Shown here: positions 1,204 to 57,759 of the stretch, one piece after another | How positions within the stretch are numbered: position 1 is the first letter of the stretch | Layout: the number at the start of each line of letters is the position of its first letter | Origin: Curtobacterium pusillum | GTDB lineage: Bacteria > Actinomycetota > Actinomycetes > Actinomycetales > Microbacteriaceae | Assembly (NCBI GenBank): GCA_002025645.1 | Contig: CP018783.1 | Location: forward strand, 3,472,001-3,536,000 | Reading direction: 5' to 3' | DNA length: 64,000 nucleotides | The notes under the pieces: model-generated | What the model saw: only the letters and a program-made list of their open reading frames with translations | What the model was told of the DNA's origin: nothing | The model's database searches: none | Translations under genes and position numbers: made by a program

Positions 1204-1262
1204 GCGAGCGGGCGGAATGCGTCCCGTCCGCGCGTTGCGGGGGACGTACTTCGCCCGCTCGC
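1204..1262. repeat. 59-nt palindrome, copy 1
   Basis: Arms GCGAGCGGGCG and CGCCCGCTCGC. Pairing continues inward through GAATGCGTCCC against GGGACGTACTT, giving about 22 base pairs with two G-T pairs and one mismatch. The interior is nearly identical to copy 2. Confidence 0.9.
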
Positions 1263-1286
1263 GTGGGCTGGGCAGTGGAGGTGGCC

Positions 1287-1333
1287 GCCTGGAGGCGCGG
1301 GCCGGCCCCGCGAGTCGGGTCGCGCCTCCAGGC
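1287..1333. repeat. Palindrome related to the 42-nt family (47 nt)
   Basis: Perfect 13-nt arms GCCTGGAGGCGCG and CGCGCCTCCAGGC flank a 21-nt centre. It shares the arms of the 42-nt family but is longer, and it lies between 59-nt copies 1 and 2. Confidence 0.8.
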
Positions 1334-1354
1334 AGTCGGGTTCACCGCGTCGGC

Positions 1355-1413
1355 GCGAGCGGGCGGAATGCGTCCCGTCCGCGTGTTGCGGGGGACGTAC
1401 TTCGCCCGCTCGC
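1355..1413. repeat. 59-nt palindrome, copy 2
   Basis: Same arms as copy 1; the interior differs from copy 1 at a single position near the centre (CGTGTTG versus CGCGTTG). Confidence 0.9.
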
Positions 1414-1439
1414 GTGGGACCGGCGCGGCGCGCACCCCG

Positions 1440-1498
1440 GCGAGCGGGCGGAATGCGTCCCGTCCGCGGGCTGATGAGGACGTACTTCGCCCGCTCGC
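1440..1498. repeat. 59-nt palindrome, copy 3
   Basis: Same arms and outer interior as copies 1 and 2, with a changed centre (GGGCTGATGAGG). Total length is still 59 nt. Confidence 0.9.
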
Positions 1499-1621
1499 GT
1501 GGACGTGGACGTGGACGCGGACGCGGGCGCGGCGGGGCGGCGCGGGCCGACGGCCTGGAGGAACGGCGCCGGTCCGGCGGATCCGGTCGCGTTCCGCGGG
1601 GCGCGAGCCCACTGCATCCGC

Positions 1622-1680
1622 GCGAGCGGGCGGAAGACGCTCAGCGGGCGCGCTGCGGCGGACGCATTCCGCCCGCTCGC
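1622..1680. repeat. 59-nt palindrome, copy 4, inverted
   Basis: Its right half (GGACGCATTCCGCCCGCTCGC shortened by one base is the inverse of the left half of copies 1-3), so the element lies in the opposite orientation. The left arm GCGAGCGGGCG is intact. It ends 5 nt before the murI -10 box. Confidence 0.88.
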
Positions 1681-1685
1681 GTCGG

Positions 1686-1691
1686 TACGCT
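1686..1691 (+). promoter_or_regulatory. murI -10 box, leaderless
   Basis: TACGCT followed by 7 nt and then the GTG start of murI. No ribosome-binding site is present, so transcription probably begins at the start codon. Confidence 0.6.
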
Positions 1692-1698
1692 GGTCACC

Positions 1699-2544
1699 GT
1701 GACGGATGCACCGATCGGAGTCTTCGACAGCGGGGTCGGCGGGCTCACGGTGGCCCGCGCGATCATCGACCAGCTGCCGCGCGAGAGCATCCGGTACGTC
1801 GGGGACACCCTCCACTCGCCGTACGGCCCGAAGCCGATCGCCGACGTCCGCCGGTACGCGCTCGAGGTCATGGACGACCTCGTCGACCAGGGCGTGAAGG
1901 CCCTCGTGATCGCGTGCAACACGGCATCGTCCGCCGTGCTCCGGGACGCCCGCGAACGGTACGAGCAGGCGTACGGCATCCCCGTGGTCGAGGTCATCCA
2001 GCCCGCAGCCCGCGCCGCCGTGAAGCAGACCCGCACCGGGCGCATCGGGGTGATCGGCACCGTCGGCACCATCGCGTCCCGGTCGTACGAGGACGCCTTC
2101 GCCGTCGCCTCGGACGTCACCCTCACCCTGGCGGCCTGCCCCCGGTTCGTGGAGTTCGTCGAGACGGGCGACACGTCGTCGCCGGCCCTCCGCACCGTCG
2201 CCGAGCAGTACCTCGCCCCGATCCGCCAGGCGGACGTCGACACGCTCGTGCTCGGCTGCACCCACTACCCCCTCATGTCCGCCGCGATCCAGTACGTGAT
2301 GGGGCCGGACGTGACCCTCGTCTCCAGCGCCGAGGAGACCGCCAATGACGTGTACCGGCGACTCGTCGAGCACGGGCTCGAGCGCACCACCCCGGAGCCG
2401 CCCACGTACTCGTTCGAGGCGACCGGCGACGACAAGAACGGCTTCATCCGACTCGCCCGACGCTTCCTCGGCCCCGAGGTCTCCAGCGTCGGCCACCTCC
2501 AGACCGGGGCCATCACGCTGCCCCGCATCGAAAGGACCCCATGA
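1699..2544 (+). CDS. murI: Glutamate racemase
   Basis: Interconverts L- and D-glutamate, supplying D-Glu for peptidoglycan. The 281-residue protein starts [19 protein letters not shown], the standard N-terminal motif. It carries both catalytic cysteines in their usual settings, ACNTAS near residue 75 and GCTHYPL near residue 185. The frame is open further upstream, but that part translates the palindromes; GTG at 1699 places the start at the family position and 7 nt after a TACGCT box. The stop overlaps the rph start (ATGA), so murI, rph and rdgB form one translationally coupled operon. Confidence 0.95.
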
Positions 2545-3275
2545 GCGACATGCTCCGCATCGACGGCCGCACCGCGACCGACCACCGTCCCGTCACGATC
2601 GAGCGGGGGTGGAGCACGCAGGCCGAGGGCAGCGCGCTCATCTCGTTCGGCAACACCCGGGTGCTCTGCACCGCGTCCTTCACGAACGGCGTCCCGCGCT
2701 GGCTCGCCGGCAAGGGCACCGGCTGGGTCACCGCCGAGTACTCGATGCTGCCCCGCTCGACGAACGAGCGCATGCAGCGCGAGTCGATCAAGGGCAAGGT
2801 CGGCGGCCGCACGCACGAGATCTCCCGCCTGATCGGCCGGTCGCTCCGCGCGGTCATCGACACGAAGGGCCTCGGCGAGAACACCCTCGTCATCGACTGC
2901 GACGTCCTGCAGGCCGACGGAGGCACCCGGACCGCGTCGATCACCGGCGCGTACGTGGCGATGGTCGACGCGATCGAGTGGGGTCGCGAGAAGGGCTTCA
3001 TCGGCAAGAAGGCCACGCCGCTCACCGACAGCGTGCAGGCGATCTCGGTCGGCATCGTCAAGGGCGAGCCGATGCTCGACCTGGCCTACACCGAGGACTC
3101 GGCGGCCGACACCGACATGAACATCGTCACGACCGGGTCCGGCAAGTTCATCGAGGTGCAGGGCACCGCCGAGCACGCGCCGTTCGACCGCGACGAGCTG
3201 AACACGCTGCTCGACCTCGGGCTCGCCGGCAACCAGTCCCTCGCCGCCATCCAGCGCGAGGTGCTGGGGCTGTGA
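2541..3275 (+). CDS. rph: Ribonuclease PH
   Basis: Phosphate-dependent 3'-5' exoribonuclease that trims the 3' ends of tRNA precursors. The 244-residue length is normal for the family. Visible motifs are [12 protein letters not shown] near the N-terminus, [23 protein letters not shown] and the phosphate/metal region [16 protein letters not shown]. The site AAAGGA precedes the ATG by about 6 nt. It overlaps murI by 4 nt upstream and rdgB by 4 nt downstream (GTGA). Confidence 0.96.
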
Positions 3276-3862
3276 CCGGCACCGTCGTCCTCGCGACGCA
3301 CAACCAGGGCAAGGTCGTCGAGCTGCGCGAGATCCTCGGGTCGGCGTTGGGTGAGGGCGTCGAACTCGTCGGCTACGACGGTCCCGAACCGGTCGAGGAC
3401 GGCGACACCTACGCGGCGAACGCCCTCATCAAGGCGCGTGCCGCGGTCGCGCACACCGGGCTGCCGGCGCTCGCCGACGACTCCGGGATCGCGGTGGACG
3501 CCCTCGGCGGCGCGCCCGGGATCCACTCGGCCCGGTACGCCGGCACCCGCGTGGACGCGGACAACATCGCGCTGTTGCTGCGGAACCTCGAGGGCGTCGT
3601 CGAGCGCACGGCGGCCTTCGTCTGCGCCGCGGCGTTCGTGACGCCCGACGGCACCGAGCACGTGTTCGAGGCCGTGTGGAACGGCGAGGTGACGACCGAA
3701 CCGATCGGCGACGGCGGGCACGGGTACGACCCGGTGTTCCGACCGGACGACGCCGACCGGACCTCGGCGGAGCTCACGCGCGACGAGAAGAACCAGCTGA
3801 GCCACCGCAGCAAGGCCTTCCGGGGCATCGCTCCGATCGTGCGGGAGCACTTCGGCGTCTGA
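3272..3862 (+). CDS. rdgB: XTP/dITP diphosphatase (RdgB/HAM1 family)
   Basis: Hydrolyses non-canonical purine triphosphates (dITP, XTP, ITP) to monophosphates and keeps them out of DNA and RNA. The 196-residue protein opens [18 protein letters not shown], the nucleotide-binding N-terminus. It contains [25 protein letters not shown] and the C-terminal GYDPVFRP and HRSKAF motifs. The GTG start overlaps the rph stop. It is the last gene of the operon and is followed by a 42-nt palindrome. Confidence 0.95.
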
Positions 3863-3893
3863 CGCCGCGGGCGTCGCGCCGTGACCGGCAGAC

Positions 3894-3935
3894 AGACGGG
3901 AGGCGCGGTGCCAGCTGGCACCGCGCCTCCTGTCC
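3894..3935. terminator. 42-nt family palindrome between convergent rdgB and dedA
   Basis: The inner 32 bases (3899-3930, GGAGGCGCGG...CCGCGCCTCC) are a perfect palindrome; the outer 5 bases on each side are only partly paired. It lies 31 nt after the rdgB stop and 16 nt beyond the dedA stop, the place for a bidirectional terminator, although no T-run follows. Confidence 0.75.
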
Positions 3936-3950
3936 GTCGGGTGGGGACCG

Positions 3951-4646
3951 TCAGTGCTGCGGTTCGGTCCCCGCGTCGGCCTCCGTCGTGCGCTTGGCCT
4001 TGCGGGCGTTGCGGAAGTACGTCAGCGCCATCGGCACGACCGTGACGACGACGGCCGCCAGCAGGATGATGTCGATGTACTCGCGGACGATGTGCGCCAC
4101 GAACGGGATGTGCCCGATGAAGTAGCCGAGGAACGTGACGCCGACGCCCCAGATCACGGCGCCGATCGCGTTGTACAACGAGTACTTCTTGTAGTTCATG
4201 CGTCCGACGCCGGCCGCGATCGGCAGGAACGTCCGGACCACGGGAACGAAGCGGGCGAGGATGACCGCGAGGGGACCGAAGCGGTGGAAGAAGGCGTTGG
4301 TGCGGTCGACGTTGGCCTTGGAGAACAGGCCGCTCTCCTTGCGCTCGAAGATCGGCGGGCCGGCCTTCTTGCCGATGTAGTAGCCGAGTTCGCCGCCGAG
4401 GAACGCGGACGCGGCGATCATCAGTGCCGCGATCCAGACCGGGATCCCGCCGATCTCGCCGCCGCGGTCGAAGGCGAACAGGCCCGTGATCACCAGCAGG
4501 CTGTCGCCCGGGAAGATGAACCCGACGAGCAGCCCGGTCTCGGCGAAGATGATGGCGCACACCACGAACACGGCGATGGCGCCGAAGTTGTCGAGGATGT
4601 ACTGCGGATCCAGCCAGGGGATCAGGGCGAGTGCGACGGAGTGCAT
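3951..4646 (-). CDS. DedA family membrane protein
   Basis: Integral membrane protein of the DedA/SNARE-associated (VTT) family. Members are linked to lipid-carrier recycling and membrane homeostasis, but the exact substrate here is unknown. The 231 residues have hydrophobic segments near 20-45, 75-90, 155-180 and 190-210. The family signatures ASAFLGGELGYYIGKKAG and ILARFVPVVRTFLPIAAG are both present. The C-terminal tail is basic and then acidic. A TACCCT box lies about 50 nt upstream and GGAAG precedes the ATG. Confidence 0.9.
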   Translation of the reverse strand: MHSVALALIPWLDPQYILDNFGAIAVFVVCAIIFAETGLLVGFIFPGDSLLVITGLFAFDRGGEIGGIPVWIAALMIAASAFLGGELGYYIGKKAGPPIFERKESGLFSKANVDRTNAFFHRFGPLAVILARFVPVVRTFLPIAAGVGRMNYKKYSLYNAIGAVIWGVGVTFLGYFIGHIPFVAHIVREYIDIILLAAVVVTVVPMALTYFRNARKAKRTTEADAGTEPQH

Positions 4647-4776
4647 GGTTCTTCCGGTCGTGGTGGCGGGGTCACGGGGAGGACTCCCGCGTGACGAGGG
4701 TACCGTCCGGGGGTTGCGACCCCATCCCTCGCGGGTATGACTTCCCCCGATGGTGCGGGCAGGGTGCGGGGAACCG

Positions 4777-4857
4777 TGCGGAAGGAGGGACTCGAACCCT
4801 CACGCCTGGGGCACAGGAACCTAAATCCTGCGTGTCTACCGATTCCACCACTCCCGC
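4777..4857 (-). tRNA. tRNA-Leu, anticodon UAG
   Basis: A class II tRNA fold can be drawn. The acceptor stem is GCGGGAG with CTTCCGC (one G-T pair), the D loop contains GGAATCGGTAGAC, the anticodon stem is CAGGA/TCCTG with loop TTTAGGT (anticodon TAG), there is a long variable arm, and the T loop is GGTTCGAGTCC. The discriminator is A and no CCA is encoded. A TAGACT -10 box (minus strand, 4873-4868) lies about 10 nt upstream of the 5' end. Confidence 0.93.
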
Positions 4858-4867
4858 GAGCAGCGGC

Positions 4868-4873
4868 AGTCTA
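4868..4873 (-). promoter_or_regulatory. -10 box of tRNA-Leu
   Basis: TAGACT on the minus strand, about 10 nt before the mature 5' end. No clear -35 box was seen. Confidence 0.5.
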
Positions 4874-4949
4874 CCGAGCGCGGGCCGACGTGCCGGACGC
4901 GATCCGTGCCTCCAGGCCGCCCTGCGCAGCGCCGCCGCGCCGCTGCGCG

Positions 4950-6311
4950 TCAGCGCAACCGACGGGGGAGGTACCGCGGGACGTACCGCAGCAGGATGCC
5001 CGCGCCGACCAGGCCGAGCACGCCCATCACCCCGCTCGCCACCGCGATCGACGCGACGGCAGTGACCCCCGAGATCACCAGCGGCGCAGCCGCCTGCCCG
5101 AAGTCGCCGGTGAACCGCCACGCGCCGAGGAAGGGCGCCGGGTGGTCCCGCGGCGCGAGGTCCGCCCCGAGCGTCATGAGGATGCCGGAGCCGACGCCGT
5201 TGGCGAGCGACATGCCCATCGCGATCGCGACGAACCAGCCCACCCGGGCGTCGAGGTGCCCGGACCACGCGAGCAGGAAGTAGCTCACGCTCAGGCCGAG
5301 CATGCAGGGGAGCGCGCTCGCCAGGCGGCCCCAGCGGTCCATGATCTGGCCGCTCGTGTAGAAGAGCGCGAAGTCGACCGCGCCGGCGATGCCGATGACG
5401 AGGGCGGCGGTCGAGTCGTCGAGTCCGACGCTGACGGCCCAGAGCGGCAGGATGACCTGCCGTCCGGCGCGGAGTGCGCCGATCAGGCCGGCGCCGCTGC
5501 CGAGCCGGAGCAGGACGGCCCGGTTCGCGCGGATGGTGCGGAAGAGGCCGTGTGCCTCCTCTTGCACGAACTGCGCGCCGGTGTCGGTGGGCGGCTCGGT
5601 CGGGCGGCCCGCGTCCGTCGTCGTGCTGGGTGACGGCCTGGGCCCACGCCGCCGGTTCCCGGACGACGCGCCAGCGGCGTCCGGGCCGTGCCGGTGGGGA
5701 GAGGCGCGGGGCGGCCTGCGGAAGCCGCGTGCGCCCGTCGCGGGGTCGCGCAGGACGAGCAGTACCACCGCTGCCAGGAGGCAGCAGACGATGTGGATCC
5801 AGAAGGCGCTCTGCGTGGTGCCGGTCAGGTGCACGACGCCGGCGGCGATGAACGGGCCGACGAAGTAGCCGAAGCGGAACACGCCACCGAGGCTCGACAG
5901 GGCACGGGCCCGGATGGCGAGCGGGATCGCGGTCGTCATGTACGCGTGCCGGGCGAGGGCGAAGACGGCCGTGGAGACACCGACGAGGAACACGCCGAGC
6001 GCCAGGACCCAGGCGTTCGGCGCCACGGTGCAGACCAGGAGCCCGACGACGGAGACGGCCGCTGCGCCGATCATCGCGTTCCGCTCGCCGATCCGCGCGA
6101 CGACGACTCCGGACGGCACGTCCCCGATGAGCTCGCCGACGAGGATGAGGGCCGCGACGAAGCCCGCGAACGCCAGGCTGGCCCCGAGGGAGCTCGCCGC
6201 GATCGGGATGATCGGGATGATGGCGCCCTCGCCGATCGCGAAGAGGGCTGCGGGCAGGAAGCCGGACAGCAGCACCGCCCGGAAGTCGAAGGCGGGGGTC
6301 TCGGAGGTCAT
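4950..6311 (-). CDS. MFS transporter
   Basis: Major facilitator superfamily exporter of 453 residues with about 12 membrane segments in two halves. The loop after TM2 carries [14 protein letters not shown], close to the MFS motif A (GxxxDRxGRR), and the second half has a matching [13 protein letters not shown] long, low-complexity, charged loop (about residues 205-265) separates the halves. The frame is open far upstream, but ATG at 6311 gives the normal N-terminus. It is divergent from mnmA with only 39 nt between starts, so the two promoters overlap. The substrate cannot be deduced. Confidence 0.85.
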
Positions 6312-6338
6312 CGCTCGTGCAAGGGTACGCGGCTCGCT

Positions 6339-6344
6339 TACCCT
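6339..6344 (+). promoter_or_regulatory. mnmA -10 box, leaderless
   Basis: TACCCT, 6 nt before the ATG of mnmA, with no ribosome-binding site. Confidence 0.6.
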
Positions 6345-6350
6345 GGTTGC

Positions 6351-7457
6351 ATGCGAGTACTTGCAGCGATGAGCGGTGGCGTCGACTCGGCGGTGGCCGC
6401 CGCCCGGGCCGTCGACGCCGGACACGACGTCGTCGGCGTCCACCTCGCACTGAGCCGGATGCCGGGCACACTGCGCACCGGCAGCCGTGGGTGCTGCACG
6501 ATCGAGGACTCGATGGACGCCCAGCGCGCCGCGTCCGCGCTCGGCATCCCGTACTACGTCTGGGACTTCTCGGCGCGGTTCAAGGAGGACGTCGTCGACG
6601 ACTTCGTGGCCGAGTACCAGGCCGGGCGCACGCCGAACCCCTGCATGCGGTGCAACGAGCGGATCAAGTTCGCGGCGTTGCTCGAGAAGGCGCTCGCCCT
6701 CGGGTTCGACGCGGTCTGCACCGGCCACTACGCCTCGATCGTCACCGGTCCGGACGGCGCCCGCGAGCTGCACCGGTCGGCGGCGTGGGCGAAGGACCAG
6801 TCGTACGTCCTCGGCGTCCTGACCGCGGAGCAGCTCCAGCACGCGATGTTCCCGCTCGGGGCGACCCCGTCGAAGGACGAGGTCCGGGCCGAGGCAGCCG
6901 CGCGTGGGCTCACCGTCGCGCAGAAGCCCGACTCGTACGACATCTGCTTCATCCCCGACGGCGACACCCGCGGCTGGCTCGCCGACCGGGTGGGCACGAC
7001 CCCCGGTGACGTCGTCGAGCGGGACGGCACGGTCGTCGGCTCGCACGACGGGGCGACCGGCTACACGGTCGGGCAGCGGCGGGGGCTCGCGCTGGGTCGG
7101 CCCGCCGCCGACGGCAAGCCGCGCTTCGTGCTCGAGATCCGCCCGAAGGACAACACCGTCGTCGTCGGCCCGAAGGCGGCGCTCGACGTCACCTCGATGT
7201 CGGGCTCCCGGTTCACGTGGGCCGGCACCGCCCCGGCGGACCCGTCCGTGCCGTTCGCGTGCGACGTGCAGATCCGGGCGCACGCCGACCCGGTGCCCGC
7301 GACCGCGCGGGTGACCGACGGGCAGCTCGTCATCGATGTCGACGAGCCGCTCTCCGGTGTCGCACCGGGGCAGACCGCGGTGGTCTACGTCGGGACCCGT
7401 GTGCTCGGGCAGTGCACGATCGACGCGACGGTGTCGGCGGTGCCCGTCTCCGCCTGA
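6351..7457 (+). CDS. mnmA: tRNA-specific 2-thiouridylase
   Basis: Thiolates U34 of tRNA(Lys/Glu/Gln) using ATP and a persulfide sulfur. The 368-residue protein has the PP-loop [13 protein letters not shown] at the N-terminus, then [14 protein letters not shown] with the first catalytic cysteine near residue 100, GHYASI, and SYDICFIP with the second catalytic cysteine near residue 200. The C-terminal RNA-binding region [10 protein letters not shown] is present. The start is leaderless (TACCCT plus 6 nt). It precedes ligA by 36 nt in the same direction. Confidence 0.96.
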
Positions 7458-9818
<2,361 letters not shown>

Positions 9819-28514: not shown

Positions 28515-28566
28515 CCACGGGCCTGGAGGCGCGGTGCGGGCCGGCACCGCGCCTCCAGGCCCGTGG
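28515..28566. terminator. 42-nt family palindrome downstream of the alcohol dehydrogenase
   Basis: A 23-bp perfect stem (outer CCACGG, inner GGAGGCGCGGTGC) around the 6-nt loop GGGCCG. The canonical 42-nt part spans 28520-28561. It lies 19 nt beyond the stop of the minus-strand dehydrogenase and shields the regulator promoter. Confidence 0.85.
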
Positions 28567-30783: not shown

Positions 30784-30844
30784 GTGCGAGGTTCCGCGCA
30801 GTGTGGGACCCGCACGACCCCGCACCGTGCCCGGAACCTCGCAC
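30784..30844. repeat. 61-nt palindrome (GTGCGAGGTTC family), copy 1
   Basis: Arms GTGCGAGGTTCCG and CGGAACCTCGCAC, with pairing extended outward by GCAGT/ACTGC to 30779-30849. The partner copy at 33189 is also 61 nt. Confidence 0.88.
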
Positions 30845-31026: not shown

Positions 31027-31677
31027 ATGGACGGCATCGACGGACGCGTGCGCGGCGCCGTCGACGTCTGGCTCCGCTGGCTCCCGCGGTGGCAGATCGG
31101 CACGGCTCGACCCCGCACGCGCATCTGCCGCAAGTGCACGGGCTCGCCGATCGCCACCGCCGCCGGGTTCGGCCCGGACGTCCCGCACGCCGTCCAGCAC
31201 GCCCTGATCGGCCGCATCTCGACCATCGTCGAGGACGCGGTCGACGACTACACCGCCCGGAACCTGCCCTTGCTCCAGCGCGAACTCGAGCGGGCCGCCG
31301 CACGGAAGCGGCACGCCGGGTACCAGCCGACCGAGGGCCTGCAGCCGGAGTTCCAGGGGCTCGACGTCGATCCCGAACCGTCGCCCGGTGAGCCCTTCCT
31401 GTTCACGCTCGGCGAGCTGACCGGCACCGGCGCGGGCGAGCAGGTTCCTCGTGAGCCGCTGTCGGACGAGGCGAAGTCGGCGCTCCGCCACGAGATCGAG
31501 CTGTCCGACGAGTGCGCCCAGGCCACCGGGGCCGCGGTCTGCCTGGCACTCATCGACCACCGACCGCGGATCGCCGAGGCCGTCGAACGCCTGGTCGAAC
31601 CCCAGATCGAGGCGCTCGTGTCGGACATGTTCCGAGGGTTCGACGGACCAGAGGCCCCGCGCGCCGGACTCTTCTGA
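31027..31677 (+). CDS. Hypothetical protein with a CxxC motif
   Basis: A 216-residue soluble protein I cannot assign. Near residue 36 it has TRICRKCTGSP, half of a possible zinc ribbon; near residue 165 SDECAQATGAAVCLALIDH gives two more cysteines that might complete it. The C-terminal half is acidic and helical. Coding is supported by normal GC third-position bias and by the promoter placed 6 nt ahead. Similar proteins in this bacterial family have, as I recall, sometimes been labelled spermidine/putrescine-binding, which nothing here supports. Confidence 0.7.
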   Translation: MDGIDGRVRGAVDVWLRWLPRWQIGTARPRTRICRKCTGSPIATAAGFGPDVPHAVQHALIGRISTIVEDAVDDYTARNLPLLQRELERAAARKRHAGYQPTEGLQPEFQGLDVDPEPSPGEPFLFTLGELTGTGAGEQVPREPLSDEAKSALRHEIELSDECAQATGAAVCLALIDHRPRIAEAVERLVEPQIEALVSDMFRGFDGPEAPRAGLF

Positions 31678-32206: not shown

Positions 32207-33157
32207 ATGACCGAGTCGCCTGCCTTCCCCAACGTCCCCGACTGCCCCTGGCACGTCGTCAACGACGACCATCCCGACGTCGCCCGCGTCCTGCGAGCGC
32301 GCGCCCGCGCCGGGGAACTCCGACGGATCGCGCACGGCCGGTACGTCCCCGTCGAGGCGTGGGACGGTCTCCGACCGGAGCAGCGTCACCACGTCCTGGT
32401 CAGGTCCCTCGTCGACCGGATCCGGCCGCGCTTCGTCGTGTCGCACCTGTCGGCGGCCGCGGTGCTCGGCGTGCCGTTCCTCCACCCGTGGCCGGGACGC
32501 GTCCACCTGATCCGACCGGGTGAGGACGCACGCACCACGAGCGCGACCTGCATCGTGCACGCCGATCTCGACCCGACGATGCGCGGCACCTGGCGCTTCC
32601 GTTCGGACGACCTGCGGGTGACGAACTCCGAGCGCACCGCGGTCGACCTCGCGATGACCCTGCCGTTCCTCGACGGTGTGGTCGCCCTCGATCGCCTGCT
32701 GCGGCTCGGCGCTGACGTGCAGACCATCCAGGACGGCATCGAGCGCCGTTCCCCTCGCGGCCGTCGCCGTGCCCTCCGCGCGCTGGCCTTCGCGGACGGA
32801 GCAGCGGACACACCCGGGGAGTCCGTCGCTCGCGTGCGGCTCGACGAGTACGGCGCGCCGCCCCCGGTGACGCAACACCGGTTCCGGGAGCGCGGGCACC
32901 CCGACATCGTCGTCGACCTCTGGCTGCCGGACACCGGCGTCGCGATCGAGTTCGACGGCGAGGTGAAGTACCGCGACCGGGCGCTCCGCGCCGGCGCATC
33001 TCCCGAGGACGTCGTGATCGCGGAGAAGTACCGCGAGGACCGCCTGCGGGCGTTCGACGAGGTCCGCCAGGTCGTCCGGCTCTCGTGGGGTGACCTCTGG
33101 AGTGAGACGTCGTTCCGTGGGAAGCTCCGCCGCGCGCGGGTCCCGATGCGGCACTGA
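32207..33157 (+). CDS. AbiEi-like antitoxin / DUF559-type nuclease fold protein
   Basis: The 316 residues combine an N-terminal winged-helix-like region found in AbiEi antitoxins (ARAGELRRIAHGRYVPVEAW, FVVSHLSAAAVLGVPF) with a C-terminal region like DUF559/Vsr nucleases (PDIVVDLWLPDTGVAIEFDGEVKYRD). The spacing of Asp, Glu and Lys suggests a PD-(D/E)XK core. No AbiEii nucleotidyltransferase lies next to it, so a toxin-antitoxin role is unproven. A paralogue is at 51179-52123. Confidence 0.75.
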   Translation: MTESPAFPNVPDCPWHVVNDDHPDVARVLRARARAGELRRIAHGRYVPVEAWDGLRPEQRHHVLVRSLVDRIRPRFVVSHLSAAAVLGVPFLHPWPGRVHLIRPGEDARTTSATCIVHADLDPTMRGTWRFRSDDLRVTNSERTAVDLAMTLPFLDGVVALDRLLRLGADVQTIQDGIERRSPRGRRRALRALAFADGAADTPGESVARVRLDEYGAPPPVTQHRFRERGHPDIVVDLWLPDTGVAIEFDGEVKYRDRALRAGASPEDVVIAEKYREDRLRAFDEVRQVVRLSWGDLWSETSFRGKLRRARVPMRH

Positions 33158-33188: not shown

Positions 33189-33249
33189 GTGCGAGGTTCG
33201 GCGCAGTGTGCGAGGGAGCGCAGCTCCCACACTGCGCGGAACCTCGCAC
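33189..33249. repeat. 61-nt palindrome (GTGCGAGGTTC family), copy 2
   Basis: Arms GTGCGAGGTTC...GCGCAGTGTG pair over 22 nt with one mismatch, and an inner GGGAGC/GCTCCC hairpin closes the loop. It lies 32 nt after the DUF559 stop and may act as its terminator. Confidence 0.88.
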
Positions 33250-47962: not shown

Positions 47963-48004
47963 GGCCTGGAGGCGCGGTGCCAGCTGGCACCGCGCCTCCA
48001 GGCC
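47963..48004. terminator. 42-nt palindrome, perfect copy
   Basis: Two perfect 21-nt arms (outer GGCCTGG, inner GGTGCCAG) with no loop beyond the centre. It lies between the convergent DUF2236 and aldo/keto reductase genes, 1 nt after one stop and 15 nt from the other. Confidence 0.88.
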
Positions 48005-48018
48005 GTCTGGTGGGTGCG

Positions 48019-49891: not shown

Positions 49892-49950
49892 GCCGCGCGG
49901 GCGAAGTACATCCGCTTCTGTCGGAGACCGAACGCTTTCCGCCCGCTCGC
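49892..49950. repeat. 59-nt palindrome, copy 5
   Basis: The right arm CGCCCGCTCGC is intact and the left arm is degenerate (GCGCGGGCGAA). The interior is unlike the other copies but the length is kept. Confidence 0.72.
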
Positions 49951-50023: not shown

Positions 50024-50082
50024 GCGAGCGGGCGAAGTACACGGTGGAAAGGCGGGATCGGCTACCGATTCCGCCCGCTCGC
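50024..50082. repeat. 59-nt palindrome, copy 6
   Basis: Perfect 11-nt arms, plus GAA/TTC pairing; the interior GTGGAAAGGCGGG is unrelated to copies 1-4. Confidence 0.88.
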
Positions 50083-50148: not shown

Positions 50149-50207
50149 TCGAGCGGGTCAATTCGTGTGCGTTCAGGCCCGAGGGCGTGTGTGTTTCGCC
50201 CGCTCGC
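50149..50207. repeat. 59-nt palindrome, copy 7
   Basis: Left arm TCGAGCGGGTC carries three changes; right arm CGCCCGCTCGC is intact. Its right end overlaps the tandem array that follows. Confidence 0.75.
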
Positions 50208-50403: not shown

Positions 50404-50489
50404 GTCTCGGGTGCTGCAGGGTGCTGCGGTTCGGTGCCCTCAGGTCATGCGCGTCGCACGGACCTGGGGATCGAGGAGTCCGTCGGGCG

Positions 50490-51050: not shown

Positions 51051-51155
51051 GGTGACTCCTTCGAAGCTGTGGTCTGCGTTCCCGAGCAGGCGTCGGACGG
51101 AACCCCAGTTCCATGCGCCTGCATCGAAGCTGATGCTAGCCCATTGTGCACTCGT

Positions 51156-51175
51156 TTGGTTGAAGCGTCAACCAA
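51156..51175. promoter_or_regulatory. yceI operator over its -35 box
   Basis: TTGGTTGA and TCAACCAA are perfect 8-nt inverted arms around 4 bases. On the minus strand the operator contains TTGACG (-35), followed after 17 nt by CACAAT (-10, about 51147-51142). The TTGA(N4)TCAA core is the shape bound by MarR-family regulators, which often control yceI genes. Confidence 0.65.
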
Positions 51176-51178
51176 TGT

Positions 51179-52123
51179 TCATCTCAATGTCGCGAGCCGA
51201 CGTCTCGGACGCGTGTCGTGCCTCCCGGTCGACGCCCCGTCGATCAGGTGACGGACCCGCGAGACGAACACCTCGACGCCCGCGCCGACGTCGTCGGCGG
51301 TGGCGCGGACAAGCCACCATCCGACGTCCTTCAGGTGTTCGCCGCGGGTGAGGTCCTTGCGGAACGTGCGATCGTCCGTGCGGCGCAGGTCGCTCTCGTA
51401 CTCGATCGCCACCCGGGCCGCCGGGTACGCGAGGTCGACACACGCGACCCAGCGGCCAGCGACGACGACGTCGTGGTTCAGCTCGGGCTGGGGGAGGCCC
51501 CGCCGCGTCAACGCCAATCGGAGGCGTGTCTCGCCTGGGGAGCGCGAGCCCGGGCGGATCTCCTCCAGCGCTGCGCGGACCCGGCGGATGCCCCGCGCGC
51601 CGCGGTAGCGACGGGCCGCTGCGACGAGTTCATCCCGATCGCACCAGCCGAGCCACCCGACGAGTGCGTCGCCGACCACGATCAACTCGTCGCGGCTGAG
51701 GAGCGTTGCCAGAGCGATGAACGTGTCGGCCGGATGCGTGAGGGCTGCTGTCCCCGAGTGGACGATGTGGACGCGTCCGCGGCGTGCGCGATGCCCGACC
51801 GTCCCGCGAACCCGGATTGCCTGGTCGGTTCCGAGGGTCGTCACGTGGATACGGGGATCGCGTTCGAGTCGACGCGGGAGCGGGATGCCGAGGATCGCCG
51901 CAGCCGTGGTGTGGCTGAACGCCTGGTCGGGGCGCAGGCGGGGGAGGACCGCACGTGCGCGTTGCTCGTGGGTGGTCGGGCGCGTCCACGCACGGATGCC
52001 GTGGAACGGGCGGAGGAGTGCGCGAGTCCGGAGGCGGCCGGCGCTGACGCCGCGGTGGAGGGCCTCACGGACGCGGAACGGGCGGCCCCGGAGGGCCATC
52101 GGGAACGTCGCCTCGAGCTGCAT
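51179..52123 (-). CDS. DUF559-type protein (paralogue of 32207-33157)
   Basis: The 314 residues have an N-terminal AbiEi-like region (FRVREALHRGVSAGRLRTRALLRPFHGIRAW, AFSHTTAAAILGIPL) and a C-terminal Vsr/DUF559-like core (ACVDLAYPAARVAIEYESDLRRTDD...RKDLTRGEHLKDVGWWLVR). The layout matches the gene at 32207, with low identity. No toxin partner adjoins. ATG 52123 follows AACGCT by 6 nt (leaderless). Confidence 0.75.
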   Translation of the reverse strand: MQLEATFPMALRGRPFRVREALHRGVSAGRLRTRALLRPFHGIRAWTRPTTHEQRARAVLPRLRPDQAFSHTTAAAILGIPLPRRLERDPRIHVTTLGTDQAIRVRGTVGHRARRGRVHIVHSGTAALTHPADTFIALATLLSRDELIVVGDALVGWLGWCDRDELVAAARRYRGARGIRRVRAALEEIRPGSRSPGETRLRLALTRRGLPQPELNHDVVVAGRWVACVDLAYPAARVAIEYESDLRRTDDRTFRKDLTRGEHLKDVGWWLVRATADDVGAGVEVFVSRVRHLIDGASTGRHDTRPRRRLATLR

Positions 52124-52129
52124 GGGGAC

Positions 52130-52135
52130 AGCGTT
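52130..52135 (-). promoter_or_regulatory. -10 box of the DUF559 gene, leaderless
   Basis: AACGCT on the minus strand, 6 nt before the ATG. Confidence 0.4.
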
Positions 52136-52233
52136 GCGGGGATGGCCGCCAGGCGGGGCGCCCGCGGGTCGATCTGTGGACGAAGCCGAGCGGAGCGGGA
52201 TTGTGGAGGAACGGCCCGGCCTGGAGGCGCGGG

Positions 52234-52292
52234 GCGAGCGGGTGGAAAGCGTCCGGTTCCGGGGCGGTCGCGTGGGTATACCGCCCGCTCGC
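52234..52292. repeat. 59-nt palindrome, copy 8
   Basis: Left arm GCGAGCGGGTG (one change), right arm CGCCCGCTCGC. It abuts a half copy of the 42-nt family on its left. Confidence 0.83.
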
Positions 52293-52404
52293 GGTCAGGA
52301 CGGCCAAGAACGCCGAGCCCAGCCTCCAGCCCCGGTCCGCGCGTGGCCCGCGCGCGCCGTGCGGCAGGTACTCGCACGGCCCCTCAGGGCGTCCGGGGGA
52401 CCGG

Positions 52405-52410
52405 TAGCGT
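52405..52410 (+). promoter_or_regulatory. -10 box of the second aldo/keto reductase, leaderless
   Basis: TAGCGT followed by 7 nt and ATG. Confidence 0.6.
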
Positions 52411-52417
52411 CGACACC

Positions 52418-53422
52418 ATGGAATTCAGGTACCTGGGCAACTCCGGACTCAAGATCTCCGAGATCACCTACGGCAACTGGCTGACGCACGGTTCGCAGGT
52501 CGAGAACGACGTCGCCACCCAGTGCGTACGGGCAGCGCTCGACGCCGGCATCACGACGTTCGACACGGCCGACACGTACGCCAACACGAAGGCCGAGACG
52601 GTCCTCGGCGAAGCACTCAAGGGCGAGCGTCGTCAGTCGCTGGAGATCTTCACGAAGGTCTACTGGCCGACCGGTCCGAAGGGCCACAACGACACCGGCC
52701 TCAGCCGGAAGCACATCATGGAGTCGATCGACGGCTCGCTCGAGCGGCTGCAGACGGACTACGTTGACCTCTACCAGGCGCACCGCTACGACCACGAGAC
52801 CCCCCTCGAGGAGACGATGCAGGCCTTCGCCGACGTCGTCCGCCAGGGCAAGGCGCTCTACATCGGCGTCAGCGAGTGGAACGCCGAGCAGATCCGTGCC
52901 GGAGCCGCCCTCGCGAAGGAACTCGGCTTCCAGCTCATCTCGAACCAGCCCCAGTACTCGATGCTGTGGCGGGTCATCGAGGGCGAGGTCGTCCCGGCCT
53001 CGAAGCAGCTCGGTCTGTCGCAGATCGTCTGGTCGCCCATCGCCCAGGGCGTGCTCACCGGCAAGTACAAGCCCGGTCAGCCGCTCCCCGAGGGCTCGCG
53101 CGCCACGGACGAGAAGGGCGGCGCCGACATGATCAAGCGGTTCATGCGCGACGAGGTCCTCGAGGCCGTCCAGCGCCTCCAGCCCGTCGCCGACCAGGCC
53201 GGGCTCACGCTCGCGCAGCTCGCGATCGCGTGGACGCTCCAGAACGAGAACGTCGCGAGTGCGATCGTCGGCGCCTCGCGTCCGGAGCAGGTCACCGACA
53301 ACGTGAAGGCCGCGGGCGTCACGCTCGACGCCGACGCGCTCGCCGCGATCGACGCGGCCCTGGGGGACATCCCGGAACGCGACGCGTCGAAGACGGTCAG
53401 CCCGGCGTCGCGCCCCGCGTAG
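52418..53422 (+). CDS. Aldo/keto reductase (voltage-gated K channel beta-like)
   Basis: The 334 residues start directly with the family motif MEFRYLGNSGLKISEITYGNW, with no extension, unlike the reductase at 48019. It shows FDTADTYANTKAE, IFTKVYWPTGP (Lys), DLYQAHRYDHETPLEE (His), ISNQPQYSMLWR and AIVGASRPEQV. The physiological substrate is unknown. It is followed by a perfect 42-nt palindrome. Confidence 0.93.
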   Translation: MEFRYLGNSGLKISEITYGNWLTHGSQVENDVATQCVRAALDAGITTFDTADTYANTKAETVLGEALKGERRQSLEIFTKVYWPTGPKGHNDTGLSRKHIMESIDGSLERLQTDYVDLYQAHRYDHETPLEETMQAFADVVRQGKALYIGVSEWNAEQIRAGAALAKELGFQLISNQPQYSMLWRVIEGEVVPASKQLGLSQIVWSPIAQGVLTGKYKPGQPLPEGSRATDEKGGADMIKRFMRDEVLEAVQRLQPVADQAGLTLAQLAIAWTLQNENVASAIVGASRPEQVTDNVKAAGVTLDADALAAIDAALGDIPERDASKTVSPASRPA

Positions 53423-53436
53423 ACGCGACCAGCCCC

Positions 53437-53478
53437 GGACTGGAGGCGCGGTGCCAGCTGGCACCGCGCCTCCAGTCC
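53437..53478. terminator. 42-nt palindrome, perfect copy
   Basis: Two perfect 21-nt arms (outer GGACTGG, inner GGTGCCAG). An outer GACGCGACC/GGTCGCGTC pair (about 53422-53430 and 53487-53495) could lengthen the stem. It lies 15 nt after the reductase stop. Confidence 0.85.
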
Positions 53479-53598
53479 GTCGTGGGGTCGCGTCCACCGC
53501 GACCCGCATGTGAACAGCAGGTGTCGCGAAACTGGCAGAAGCCTCCGTAAGCCTGTACCCCTCCCAAACCGCACCCCCACGTCCCCCGAATCGGGGGC

Positions 53599-54123
53599 AT
53601 GACCCGAACCGATACCCCCGTTGTGGTGTCATCCGCCACCGGAGCGGTGCCCGTCCCGCCGCGCGCGACCCTCGCGCGGCTGGTGACCCTCGCCCGCCAG
53701 CTGGTCTCCTTCGGGAGCATCGGCGCCGTCTGCTTCGTCATCGACCTCGGCGTCTACAACCTCCTCCGCGCGACCGTGATGCCCGACGGGCCCATCGCCG
53801 CGAAGATCGTCTCCGCCGTCGTGTCCACGGCCGTCGCCTGGGTCGGCAACCGGTTCATCACCTTCCGCGCCGAACGCCAGACGGGCCGGCGCGAGACCCT
53901 CCGCGAAGGGCTCCTCTTCGCGGCCACGAACCTCATCGGCCTCGGCATCGCCGCCGCCTGCCTGTTCGTCTCGCACTACGTCCTCGGATTCACCTCCACC
54001 CTCGCCGACAACGTCGCCGGCAACGGGGTGGGTCTCGTGCTCGGCACCGCGTTCCGGTTCGCCGCGTACAAGGCCCTCGTCTTCCGTTCCACCGACGCTC
54101 ACGCGAAGGAGCTCGCCGAATGA
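53599..54123 (+). CDS. GtrA family membrane protein
   Basis: A 174-residue protein with four membrane helices (LVSFGSIGAVCFVIDLGVYNLL, AKIVSAVVSTAVAWVGNRFITF and two more), typical of GtrA proteins that move or hold polyprenol-linked sugars. It heads a coupled operon and overlaps the GT2 gene by 4 nt (ATGA). A CCCCCGA/TCGGGGG palindrome lies immediately before the ATG. Confidence 0.88.
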   Translation: MTRTDTPVVVSSATGAVPVPPRATLARLVTLARQLVSFGSIGAVCFVIDLGVYNLLRATVMPDGPIAAKIVSAVVSTAVAWVGNRFITFRAERQTGRRETLREGLLFAATNLIGLGIAAACLFVSHYVLGFTSTLADNVAGNGVGLVLGTAFRFAAYKALVFRSTDAHAKELAE

Positions 54124-55610
54124 CCATCTCCGCCACGCTGCTGACGGCCGCCGGGCCGCTGCTCCAGCCCAACGAGGGGACCGCTCCGTCGGGCGTCCCG
54201 AACCGGGGCACGACCGACGTGCCGACGGGAGGCTCGGGTCAGATCTCGCAGGGAGCCTGGTCGCTGGGCGAGTGGATCGGGTACTCGACCCTCGTCGCCG
54301 TGTCCGTGCTGCTCACGATCATCGCGCTCACCACCCTCTGGTGGATGCTGCACGCATGGCGGTCGCGGGACGCGCTGAAGTCGACGAGCTTCAGCCAGAG
54401 CCCGCGCCCGGCCGCGCACCGGTTCACGCTGCTCGTGCCCGGCCGCCACGAGCAGGACGTCATGGGCGAGACGCTCGACATGCTCGCCAAGCAGGACCAC
54501 CCCGACTTCGAGATCATCGCGATCGTCGGCGAGGACGACCCCGAGACGGACGCCGTCGTGCGTGCCGCCGCGGCCCGCCACCCCTCGCTGATCCGCGTCG
54601 TGGTGGACGACACGGCGCCGAAGAACAAGCCGAAGGCGATGAACCTCGCGCTGCAGTACGCCACTGGTGACATCGTCGGCGTGTTCGACGCCGAGGACGA
54701 GGTCTACCCGCGCCTGCTGTCCCTGGTGGACTCGCGCTTCCAGGAGACCGACGCCGACGTGGTGCAGGGCGGCGTGCAGCTCATGAACTTCAAGTCGAGC
54801 TGGTGGTCGCTCCGCAACGTGCTCGAGTACTACTTCTGGTTCCGCTCGCGTCTGCACTTCCACGCCGGCTCGAAGTTCATCCCGCTCGGCGGCAACACCG
54901 TCTTCGTCACCCGATCGCGGCTCGAGTGGTCCAACGGGTGGGACGCGCACTGCCTCGCCGAGGACTGCGAGCTCGGCGTCCGGCTCTCCGCCGACGGCGC
55001 CAAGGTCGTCGTCGCGTACAGCCCCGAGGCCGTCACCCGTGAGGAGACCCCGCCCACCTTCGCCTCCCTGCTCAAGCAGCGGACCCGGTGGAACCAGGGC
55101 TTCCTGCAGGTGCTCGGCAAGGGGGAGTGGAAGAAGCTGCCGAGTTTCCGACAGCGGTTCTTCGCGCGCTACATGCTGACGATGCCGTTCATCCAGGCGG
55201 CCACCGGGCTCCTCATCCCGCTGAGCGTCGTGATGATCCTGTTCGTCAAGGTGCCGACGGCGATCGCCCTCGTCTCCTTCGTGCCGCTCGCGCCGACGCT
55301 GATGCTCCTCGCGGTCGAGGTCGTCGGCCTCAACGAGTTCGGTCGGATCTACGGCGAACGAGTGCGGGTGCGCGACTACGTGAAGCTCGTGCTCGGCCTC
55401 GTGCCCTACCAGGTGTTCCTCGCCGCTGCCGCCGTCCGGGCCGTCGTCCGGCACGCCAAGGGGCAGAACGGGTGGGAGAAGACGGAGCACACCGGGCAGC
55501 ACCGGACGGCTGGGCAGCCGGCCGAGGTCGTGGGGTTCGCGAACGCCGTCACGACCGACAGCTCGGACGAGCGTGAGCTCGCCGGTTCGACCACTGGAGG
55601 GACCCGATGA
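54120..55610 (+). CDS. Family 2 glycosyltransferase, cellulose-synthase-like
   Basis: The 496 residues have a membrane helix near 45-75, a GT2 catalytic domain and three C-terminal helices (about 355-445). Processive-synthase motifs are present: RFTLLVPGRHEQD, DAEDE (near 190), CLAEDCELGVRL and KQRTRW (Q-x-x-R-W, near 320). It probably polymerises a beta-linked glycan at the membrane. It is translationally coupled to GtrA upstream and to the GT39 gene downstream. Confidence 0.9.
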   Translation: MTISATLLTAAGPLLQPNEGTAPSGVPNRGTTDVPTGGSGQISQGAWSLGEWIGYSTLVAVSVLLTIIALTTLWWMLHAWRSRDALKSTSFSQSPRPAAHRFTLLVPGRHEQDVMGETLDMLAKQDHPDFEIIAIVGEDDPETDAVVRAAAARHPSLIRVVVDDTAPKNKPKAMNLALQYATGDIVGVFDAEDEVYPRLLSLVDSRFQETDADVVQGGVQLMNFKSSWWSLRNVLEYYFWFRSRLHFHAGSKFIPLGGNTVFVTRSRLEWSNGWDAHCLAEDCELGVRLSADGAKVVVAYSPEAVTREETPPTFASLLKQRTRWNQGFLQVLGKGEWKKLPSFRQRFFARYMLTMPFIQAATGLLIPLSVVMILFVKVPTAIALVSFVPLAPTLMLLAVEVVGLNEFGRIYGERVRVRDYVKLVLGLVPYQVFLAAAAVRAVVRHAKGQNGWEKTEHTGQHRTAGQPAEVVGFANAVTTDSSDERELAGSTTGGTR

Positions 55611-57595
55611 CCGCCAGCATCACCAACACGACCGGCATCCCGATCCGTGGTGCCGTCGCGGGCCAGCGCTCCGGCGTCGGCGCCTGGTTCCGTCGGCACG
55701 CCGCGAGCCTCGGCTGGCTGCTGCCCGTCCTCGCCGTCACGGTCGTCGTGCAGGCGTGGAACATGTCCGGCACGCCGCAGCGCATCGACGACGAGGGGAC
55801 GTACACCGCGCAGGCGTGGGCGATCGCACACCTCGGCGAGATCACGCACTACACGTACTGGTACGACCACCCGCCGCTCGGGTGGTTCCAGATCGCCGGG
55901 TACACCTCGCTGACCGGGGCGTTCGCGCGCTACCCGTTCGCCGTCGAGGCCGGCCGTGAGGCGATGGTCTTCTTCGCCGCCGTGTCGAGCATCCTGCTGT
56001 TCGTCCTCGCCCGCCGTCTCGGCACGGGCCGGGCGACCGCGGCCGCCGCAGGCCTCGTCTTCGCCCTGTCGCCGCTCGCACTGCAGTACCACCGCACCGT
56101 GTACATCGACAACGTCGCGACGCCCTGGCTCCTCGCCGCGTTCGTCCTCGTGCTGAGCCGACGTCAGCAGCTGGCCGGGTTCGCCGGGGCTGCCGCGTGC
56201 CTCGGGATCGCCGTGCTCTCCAAGGAGACGTACCTGCTCGCGCTGCCGTTCCTCATCTGGATCGCGGTGCGCCGGGCCGACAAGAGCACCCGCCGGTACA
56301 CGCTGAGCGTCGCCGGGGCCGTGCTCGCCGTGATCGGCGGCGGCTACCTGCTGCTCGCCGCGGTGAAGGGCGAGCTCCTGCCCGGGACCGGACGGGTCAG
56401 CCTGTTCGAGGGCATCACCTACCAGCTCGGGTCCCGAGCGGCCTCGGGGTCGGTGTTCGACTCGGGGAGCCTCGCGAACGAGGCCGCCTCCCAGTGGTGG
56501 GCCCTCGACCCCGTGTTCATCGTGCTCGGGTCCGTGGCCGCCGTCGTCGGGCTCTTCCTGCGCCGGGTCCGCCCGATCGCCGCGATGCTCGTGTTCCTGC
56601 TGCTCATGATGTTCCGGCCGAACGGGTACCTGCCCGTGCCGTACGTCATCATGCTCATCCCGTTCGCGGCGCTGCTCGTGGCGTACACCGCCGAACGCGC
56701 CGTCCTCGCGATCGCCGGGCGCACCCGGACCCGCACGCGCCTCGGCGGAGCCACCCGCCGTGGCCTCGGCATCACCTGGCTGGCGGCCACCACCGCGGCG
56801 CTCGTCGTGGCGGTCCCGCTCTGGGGCGGCCAGCTGCGCGGGTTCGTGCTCGGCAACCTCGACCTGCCGATGCAGCAGGCCGAGGAGTGGGTGGGCGACA
56901 ACGTGCCGAAGTCCTCCCGGCTGCTCGTCGACGACGCCATGTGGGTCGACCTCGTGCAGGACGGCTTCGCCCGGAACAACGTCGTCTGGTACTACAAGCT
57001 CGACACCGACGCCGCGGTCGAACGCCAGTCGCCGAACGGGTGGAAGGACGCGGACTACGTCGTCACGACTGACTCCATGCGGACCGGCGGCAACTCGTCG
57101 TCCGACATCCGGCAGGCGATCGAGAACTCGACGTCCGTCGCCGCGTTCGGCACCGGGAACCAGCGGGTCGACGTCCGTCGGATCCACTCCGAGGGCACGA
57201 CCGCCGCGAACGCTGCGATCACCCGCGCGACCGACCTCCGCAAGACGATGGGCACCCAGCTCGCCGCGAACCCGGCACTCCGGGCGGACGGCGGGACGAA
57301 GTCGCAGTTCCGTGCCGGCCAGGTCGACTCGCGGGCGATGATCGCGCTCGGCCAGGTGCTCGCCGACCGGGCGATCGGTGTCGACCGCTTCACGCCGCTC
57401 GAGGGGGAGACCGGGCAGCCGTTCCGCCGGGTGGTCCTCGACGCGTCGGACGCCTCGGCTGCCGCACGGGTCGCCGCCACGCTCGACGCGATGTCCGACG
57501 CCTTCCGCCCCGCCTCGGTGGAGCGCGACGGCTCGGAGCTCACCGTCACGTACCTGCCCGCCGACCCCACCACGACCGCGACGAGCGCCACGTGA
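55607..57595 (+). CDS. Family 39-like glycosyltransferase
   Basis: A 662-residue polytopic enzyme that would use a polyprenyl-phosphate sugar outside the membrane. The first external loop carries the acidic RIDDEGTYTAQAWAI, then HYTYWYDHPPLGWFQ, YHRTVYIDNVATPWLL and SKETYLLALPFLIW, as in ArnT/PMT-type enzymes. A soluble C-terminal domain covers about residues 425-662. Third gene of the coupled gtrA-GT2-GT39 set. Confidence 0.88.
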   Translation: MTASITNTTGIPIRGAVAGQRSGVGAWFRRHAASLGWLLPVLAVTVVVQAWNMSGTPQRIDDEGTYTAQAWAIAHLGEITHYTYWYDHPPLGWFQIAGYTSLTGAFARYPFAVEAGREAMVFFAAVSSILLFVLARRLGTGRATAAAAGLVFALSPLALQYHRTVYIDNVATPWLLAAFVLVLSRRQQLAGFAGAAACLGIAVLSKETYLLALPFLIWIAVRRADKSTRRYTLSVAGAVLAVIGGGYLLLAAVKGELLPGTGRVSLFEGITYQLGSRAASGSVFDSGSLANEAASQWWALDPVFIVLGSVAAVVGLFLRRVRPIAAMLVFLLLMMFRPNGYLPVPYVIMLIPFAALLVAYTAERAVLAIAGRTRTRTRLGGATRRGLGITWLAATTAALVVAVPLWGGQLRGFVLGNLDLPMQQAEEWVGDNVPKSSRLLVDDAMWVDLVQDGFARNNVVWYYKLDTDAAVERQSPNGWKDADYVVTTDSMRTGGNSSSDIRQAIENSTSVAAFGTGNQRVDVRRIHSEGTTAANAAITRATDLRKTMGTQLAANPALRADGGTKSQFRAGQVDSRAMIALGQVLADRAIGVDRFTPLEGETGQPFRRVVLDASDASAAARVAATLDAMSDAFRPASVERDGSELTVTYLPADPTTTATSAT

Positions 57596-57607
57596 CCGCC
57601 CCCGGTC

Positions 57608-57666
57608 GCGAGCGGGCGAAACACGCGGGGTCCCGCCTCGGATCCGGACCGGAAAGGCCCGCTCGC
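57608..57666. repeat. 59-nt palindrome, copy 9
   Basis: Left arm GCGAGCGGGCG; right end GGCCCGCTCGC, one change from the usual arm. The interior (ACACGCGGGGTCCCGCC, GGATCCGGACCGG) is itself palindromic and shared with copy 10. Confidence 0.87.
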
Positions 57667-57700
57667 GCGGACATCGTCGGGAGTCGGGGGAGCGCGTCCC

Positions 57701-57759
57701 GCGAGTGGGCGGAACACGCGGGGTCCCGCCCCGGATCCGAACCGGAAAGGCCCGCTCGC
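57701..57759. repeat. 59-nt palindrome, copy 10
   Basis: Left arm GCGAGTGGGCG. The interior is nearly the same as copy 9 with a few substitutions and no length change. Confidence 0.87.

Follow-up and report, generated by a model that had tools for sequence, protein, structure and literature searches.

Palindromes of near-constant length in Curtobacterium and a nuclease-like protein as their likely reader

We analysed a 64,000-nt stretch of the Curtobacterium pusillum genome (contig CP018783.1 of assembly GCA_002025645.1, positions 3,472,001 to 3,536,000; hereafter the window, numbered from its first letter), which carries a dispersed family of palindromes, here called family A, and a reverse-strand gene at 51179..52123 encoding a 314-aa protein that we refer to as nuclease-1. 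We found that family A palindromes are real and of near-constant length and, from comparison of sequences between genomes, that nuclease-1 is their likely reader. Our reading, to which we give a probability of roughly three in four, is that the palindromes would be bipartite double-stranded binding sites of this dedicated protein. The pair looks like a previously undescribed enzyme-and-repeat partnership in Curtobacterium.

Ten copies, each of 59 nt, had originally been noted in the window. All ten are present, but only five are exact in both arms (1204..1262, 1355..1413, 1440..1498, 1622..1680 and 50024..50082, none assigned to a strand, like all palindromes below), the first of them in the divergent gap between the nicotinate phosphoribosyltransferase gene and murI. 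Four others keep the 59-nt length with arm mismatches: 50149..50207 has three, 52234..52292, which lies 110 bp upstream of the nuclease-1 gene, has one, and 57608..57666 and 57701..57759 have one and two, respectively. The copy starting at 49892 has a degraded left arm and is better described as a 58-nt element with two mismatches at 49893..49950. Nor are the interiors wholly unrelated to one another, as had been claimed, because a consensus is present at positions 12-18 and, in certain genomes, at 22-23 as well. The window contains eight arm pairs of 59 nt, as against none in 20 dinucleotide shuffles (at most two mismatches per arm and three in total), and 13 arm pairs of 44-74 nt, as against a mean of 0.7 and a maximum of four in 20 such shuffles.

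With a free spacer of 22-52 nt, all ten exact copies in the window's genome measured 59 nt and the reversed-pattern control gave none; at a length of 59 nt and up to three mismatches, the same genome has 23 copies, compared with three in the control. Among 368 distinct matches in Curtobacterium loci, 201 are of 59 nt, 67 of 60 nt and 15 of 58 nt; the reversed-arm control, which was not deduplicated, peaks at 63-64 nt and has four matches at 59 nt and two at 60 nt. A minor peak at 73-74 nt includes doubled arms. The distance between adjacent copies is highly variable, with a 5-95% range of 12-128 nt (226 spacers of up to 160 nt). Counts of 59- and 60-nt copies at up to three mismatches are 39 and 0 in genome G017, 1 and 23 in G029, and 11 and 11 in G002, which is mixed. 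The exact pattern was found in 28 of the 59 genomes searched, every one of them Curtobacterium, and in none of the 23 genomes of other genera. A broad spread of arm-to-arm distances, or arms at chance frequency, was looked for in the free-spacer scan and the shuffles; neither occurred.

Copies were then compared in place between species by alignment through both flanks, unalignable ones being dropped. From the window's genome to its close relative G060 (9 of 16 copies), changes were found at 10 of 198 positions in the arms, 63 of 207 in the centre, 235 of 1215 in spacers and 26 of 684 in coding sequence; from G032 to G001 (10 of 11 copies), the corresponding values are 6 of 220, 43 of 238, 284 of 2264 and 14 of 411. 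Indel events numbered one per 531 bp of element and 39 per 1215 bp of spacer in the first comparison, and two per 597 bp and 70 per 2264 bp in the second. The reverse comparisons agree but are noisier and include a few poor alignments: they gave 18 of 242 arm changes and six indel events per 645 bp from G060 to the window's genome (11 of 21 copies), and 15 of 263 and seven per 712 bp from G001 to G032 (12 of 16 copies). Judged by these alignments, the arms and length of A palindromes are kept in place while the centre drifts.

Half-site logos give the consensus GCGAGCGGGCG, followed by a purine, two A/T positions (13-14) and a more variable stretch in which position 18 is G or C. The outer 11 nt of the half-site are clear; the inner part, up to position 23, is clear in C-type genomes only and less so in G-type genomes. 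Position 18 is genome-specific, with 645 of 708 half-sites carrying the majority base of their own genome, and positions 13 and 14 often show A-A or T-T. Under global re-pairing of halves, position 18 (18:42) showed apparent covariation (z = 13.6). Within-genome re-pairing gave a largest z of 0.7 at positions 12-29 (236 dereplicated elements in 48 genome/length groups); as this shuffle could by chance rejoin a copy's own halves, a second one excluded self-pairing, and the largest z among different copies was 0.5, while positions 17, 21 and 25 paired worse (z of about -3 to -4). The 18:42 signal was rejected as stem pairing and is explained as a genome-specific consensus, since it vanishes on within-genome re-pairing. 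By this measure, the halves of A palindromes are under no selection to pair. The null result within genomes and the genome-specific position 18 together indicate, therefore, that each half is read separately, by something that varies between genomes.

Nuclease-1 is the candidate for such a reader. A close ortholog (at least 65% identity) was found in 33 of the 40 genomes searched, comprising 33 of the 35 with A palindromes and none of the five without (P = 3.2e-5, Fisher's exact test). These five (G004, G010, G019, G028 and G035) have one to three 59- and 60-nt matches in total at up to three mismatches, with reversed controls totalling one to six, and were scored as lacking A palindromes before the gene search. 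In a nuclease-1 protein tree of 32 genomes, of which three were typed by element length only and two by eye from listings, a G clade and a C clade (support 100/98) account for the element types with one type change. A tree of the nicotinate phosphoribosyltransferase/murI flank, by contrast, needs at least four type changes among 31 typed genomes and rejects a single C clade (P = 0.00028). At several orthologous gaps the copies are G-type or C-type depending on the species, and G018 and G033 are close to the window's species in the murI region, yet have a C-type nuclease together with C-type elements. The RNase_T and MFS genes of G018 are at 96.2 and 97.6% to those of the window's species, closer than G017 or G026; those of the C-type species G001 are nearly as close (95.3 and 94.7%). 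Nuclease-1, which is flanked in the window by YceI and aldo-keto reductase genes, diverges faster than its neighbours (93.9% between the window's genome and G060, compared with 97.9-99.7%). On these sequence comparisons, A element type follows the nuclease-1 allele and not the tree of the single neighbouring locus studied. The original suggestion that arm spacing is under selection through a protein bridging two sites, possibly a nuclease that measures the element, is supported by the absence of pairing selection, by the arms and length kept in place, and by a nuclease-like gene that tracks the palindromes.

What kind of protein nuclease-1 might be was assessed in an alignment of 37 proteins, comprising 27 of the 33 nuclease-1 orthologs and ten of a paralog, nuclease-2. 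At E-values of up to 1, 27 of the 37 match MTES_1575 (best 4.9e-5), six match DUF559 (0.0071) and four match AbiEi_4 (1e-4). The window's own nuclease-1 has a weak MTES_1575 match at residues 235-279 (E = 0.022). Among eight nuclease-1 proteins given singly, four, all C-type, match an AbiEi model over their N-terminal half (0.0012-0.025); the match of the window's nuclease-2 is firmer (2.4e-5). Residues E198, D230, E241, D257 and R260 are invariant across all 37 proteins, which suggests a kept active site, and the acidic ones would fit a predicted PD-(D/E)XK nuclease fold and activity. Nuclease-1 is a probable MTES_1575/DUF559-type (PD-(D/E)XK, Vsr-like) nuclease, perhaps with a distant N-terminal resemblance to AbiEi.

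Nuclease-2 (32207..33157, forward strand) is a 316-aa protein, AbiEi-like at residues 27-150, with 27% identity to nuclease-1 over part of its length (E = 3e-07), and is the candidate reader of a second palindrome family, B. A 61-nt B palindrome lies 31 bp past its stop codon (33189..33249) and another, also of 61 nt, lies on the opposite side, beyond the gene at 31027-31677 (30784..30844); a B copy is likewise found about 30 bp past the nuclease-2 stop codon in G003, G006, G002 and G032. B palindromes occur in 12 of the 14 genomes with a close nuclease-2 ortholog and in three of the 26 without (P = 6e-6). One of these three is G060, in which alignment to the window shows the gene region to be missing. 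A link between the inner-block type of family B and the nuclease-2 clade was sought, and no clear one was found. A further 20 paralog loci, drawn from nine genomes and chosen by hand from the ortholog search lists, were compared for flanking palindromes: at up to one mismatch in 11, nine are bracketed by a shared palindrome arm, compared with one of 220 control genes. Mismatches were allowed in this test only after an exact-word run, since more families were seen by eye to recur.

Outside Curtobacterium, the matches listed in the arm scan include Mycobacterium shimoidei, Knoellia, Kocuria, an actinobacterial metagenome-assembled genome (MAG) and isolated single matches that differ in length. 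A tblastn search of 21 palindrome-bearing loci from other organisms gave a nuclease homolog in two, M. shimoidei and the actinobacterial MAG, and in each it is bracketed by a pair of 60-nt palindromes whose arms are almost those of A; the second palindrome of each pair has two arm mismatches, and one in the MAG overlaps the end of the homolog gene. Exact copies number 19 in M. shimoidei, where 18 measure 60 nt and the other 61 nt, and four in the MAG, all of them 60 nt long. As the search had fixed the arms, shared arms are therefore no evidence in themselves; the shared length and gene are. The Knoellia palindromes (loci L062, L091, L118, L120, L134 and L147) share the 11-nt arms, measure 46-48 nt and have stems that are close to perfect, and tblastn found no nuclease homolog in the DNA fetched for these loci.

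Several observations weigh against nuclease-1 as reader of family A, and against the extension to its paralogs. G008 and G023 (the latter 73% complete) carry A elements without a close nuclease-1; G024, G030 and G060 have B palindromes without nuclease-2, and in G009 and G021 nuclease-2 occurs but B does not. Only a few independent phylogenetic contrasts are available, with two for, none against and one undecided for A and nuclease-1, and about three for, one against and two undecided for B and nuclease-2, and the neighbourhood tree represents one locus, which may be recombined. Nuclease-1 in the window has a nearby palindrome on one side only. Its MTES_1575 match scores 15.3 bits, below the curated cut-off of 38.2, and it has no AbiEi match in Pfam (E up to 10) or PADLOC (up to 0.1); the four remaining proteins of the eight given singly, all G-type and including the window's, match no PADLOC model. 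Common palindromes on both sides are lacking at 11 of the 20 paralog loci at up to one mismatch, and looser thresholds raise the controls (10 of 20 and 9 of 220 at two mismatches; 12 of 20 and 27 of 220 at three). The earlier exact-word test gave four of 20 (k = 9) or five of 20 (k = 8), compared with none of 321 controls. Finally, 19 of the 21 palindrome-bearing loci from other organisms have no nuclease homolog.

Further palindrome families were also encountered. Family E, with arms GTGAGCAGAA, measures 51 nt in all 14 distinct copies found and has near-perfect, hairpin-like stems (for example L296 1950-2004, L171 6689-6739, L178 6475-6525 and L011 1359-1409); one copy adjoins a nuclease paralog in G001. 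A CCGAGGTCGCACG family (L225 11600-12250 and L304 in G019; L308 in G007) flanks a nuclease paralog in both G019 and G007, the G019 cluster lying some tens of kb from murI. Families around GGAGGCGCGG, in the window at 28522-28559, 47965-48002 and 53438-53477, are mostly of 38-40 or 46 nt, and some may be terminators.

On a gene map from our own gene finder, the 261 distinct A copies are distributed among tandem gaps (128), convergent gaps (48), divergent gaps (40), predicted genes (6) and locus edges (39). The shares by gap type resemble those of gap DNA itself (68,350 bp tandem, 20,407 bp convergent and 28,764 bp divergent). The original claim that most copies lie upstream of genes is not borne out, as no upstream bias was found; upstream regulatory sites were rejected on the same distribution, and terminators were rejected for A because copies occur in divergent gaps. 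The genes flanking A copies have no evident common function. In the nicotinate phosphoribosyltransferase/murI gap, copies are present in 12 of 39 species, the window's included, and absent from 27; the gap ranges from 39 to 1,075 bp, and from no copy to about seven 59-nt copies, between species. A TGA was flagged within the murI match at G019:C1:1910302-1911144, G034:C2:28109-28951 and G035:C1:904118-904960. In G060, copies occupy all six gaps that are occupied in the corresponding region of the window's genome, plus one more, with differing copy numbers, and in one gap the two copies have a species-specific change in common. Copies also cluster within 50 kb of nuclease-1: 29 of 39 in G017 (1.1 expected), 10 of 23 in G000 (0.6 expected), and in G001, for which 24 copies are counted, 11 of the 21 whose places are known (0.6 expected if evenly spread). 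A phage or plasmid origin was rejected, as no similar record was found; the arms occur in six viral contigs, one of which has a 59-nt palindrome. This A-type palindrome (L247 14120-14178) lies close to where the fetched portion of the viral contig ends and may represent host flank or a prophage.

These data bear on a rival that we regard as unlikely and still take seriously, namely that the protein is a mere DNA-binding regulator or nucleoid organiser, an AbiEi-like autorepressor, with the palindromes serving as operator or architectural sites whose upkeep does not involve the nuclease fold. AbiEi is known to repress its own expression from such a repeat (PMC3985639), gap positions are common to several species, and one A copy lies just upstream of the nuclease-1 gene. 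However, copies occur in all kinds of gap beside functionally unrelated genes, the murI gap varies in copy number as described above, and the invariant residues suggest an active site that has been kept. Far less probable is that the palindromes are miniature inverted-repeat transposable elements (MITEs) of an unseen transposase, with the nuclease gene a bystander: their inverted ends and local clustering would suit this, but the half-site GCGAGCGGGCGRAW is nearly confined to the elements (47 exact matches in two genomes, three of them outside), so a transposon ending in this way is not resident in those two. Element type, moreover, goes with the nuclease allele, and no Y1 transposase was found in 40 genomes; an IS200-like transposase had been raised originally, and its domain, PF01797, was detected in none of the 40, with five of 14 control genomes positive. 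No transposase or recombinase was found among the part of the window's genes that was scanned. The weakest rival, RNA or single-stranded DNA hairpins with selected stem pairing, similar to repetitive extragenic palindromic (REP) elements, has in its favour the near-perfect arms and the apparent 18:42 covariation against global shuffles, but is already contradicted for A by the loss of that covariation within genomes, by the frequent A-A and T-T at positions 13 and 14, and by the lack of any Rfam family in the window at gathering thresholds except a tRNA, which also rejects a known RNA family; this applies to A only, as other families, E among them, do resemble hairpins.

If A palindromes are binding sites of nuclease-1, one monomer would read each half-site of about 23 nt, contacting the 11-nt core through a winged helix in the way proposed for AbiEi, and two monomers would face each other. 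Length would be constant because the dimer fixes the distance between half-sites. More speculatively, the nuclease domains may lie over the variable centre and cut or nick there, and repair from other copies might then produce conversion, concerted change, multiplication, tandem growth and local spread. We infer binding, cutting and spreading by nuclease-1 from sequence patterns, and found no published link between such nucleases and palindromes in our searches of the open-access literature. A broader proposal, which we advance tentatively and at a little short of even odds, is that of a new selfish enzyme-and-site class in Actinomycetota, in which AbiEi-like nucleases, several paralogs to a genome, would each spread a private palindrome of set length by measured-centre cutting and repair copying of neighbouring sites, with genome-wide turnover of sites on allele replacement. 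If the pairing of enzyme and repeat holds, AbiEi/DUF559-type genes of unknown function would gain a possible role, protein-site pairs would form a natural series whose specificity is readable from sequence alone, and the maintenance of short intergenic palindromes without a REP-associated tyrosine transposase (RAYT) would become a directly testable question.

The Curtobacterium pair was compared with several known systems. Streptococcus AbiEi recognises an inverted repeat of 11 bp that extends to 23 bp, with one monomer proposed per half (PMC3985639). Family A resembles this operator of a type IV toxin-antitoxin system in its inverted half-sites with an 11-bp core in about 23 bp, but the published arrangement is 23-3-23, whereas A, on our inferred half-site of 23 nt, would have about 23-13-23 or 23-14-23; A copies are, moreover, many and dispersed, and nuclease-1 in the window, between its YceI and aldo-keto reductase neighbours, has no AbiEii gene beside it. 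MTES_1575 has been described as a novel Vsr restriction endonuclease (REase; PMC3710099), and the C-terminal domain of nuclease-1 weakly matches this REase and DUF559 Vsr-like nucleases. Nuclease-1 differs in being small and single, and the string 'palindrom' is absent from the main text of that article. CGTC-tagged REPs, with stems of 8-9 bp, loops of 4-5 bp and a CGTC tag, are likewise palindromes without a known dedicated transposase (PMC3733652), but the A consensus has neither such a short stem-loop nor the tag.

The closest parallel is REP/RAYT, in which the enzyme gene sits close to its repeats or is enclosed by them, enzyme and repeats co-evolve, the enzyme diverges faster than its neighbours, and its presence tracks repeat abundance (PMC2817692); the Curtobacterium pair resembles it in these respects. 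Flanking of the enzyme by repeats holds in part (the nine of 20 paralogs compared with one of 220 controls, and the M. shimoidei and MAG loci), and co-evolution is seen for A (one change on the nuclease tree compared with four on the neighbourhood tree) and is not clear for B. The differences are that no Y1/HUH transposase was found (PF01797 in none of the 40 genomes), with a probable PD-(D/E)XK nuclease in its place, and that A has no selection for a folded hairpin and a total length nearly fixed at 59-60 nt. As the comparison fails for both the enzyme and the hairpin, the pair is therefore not filed under REP/RAYT. It may instead, by a weaker argument from analogy, be a REP/RAYT-like system of unrelated make, which, if true, would mean that palindromic repeats in bacteria have a second enzymatic basis, unrelated to the first.

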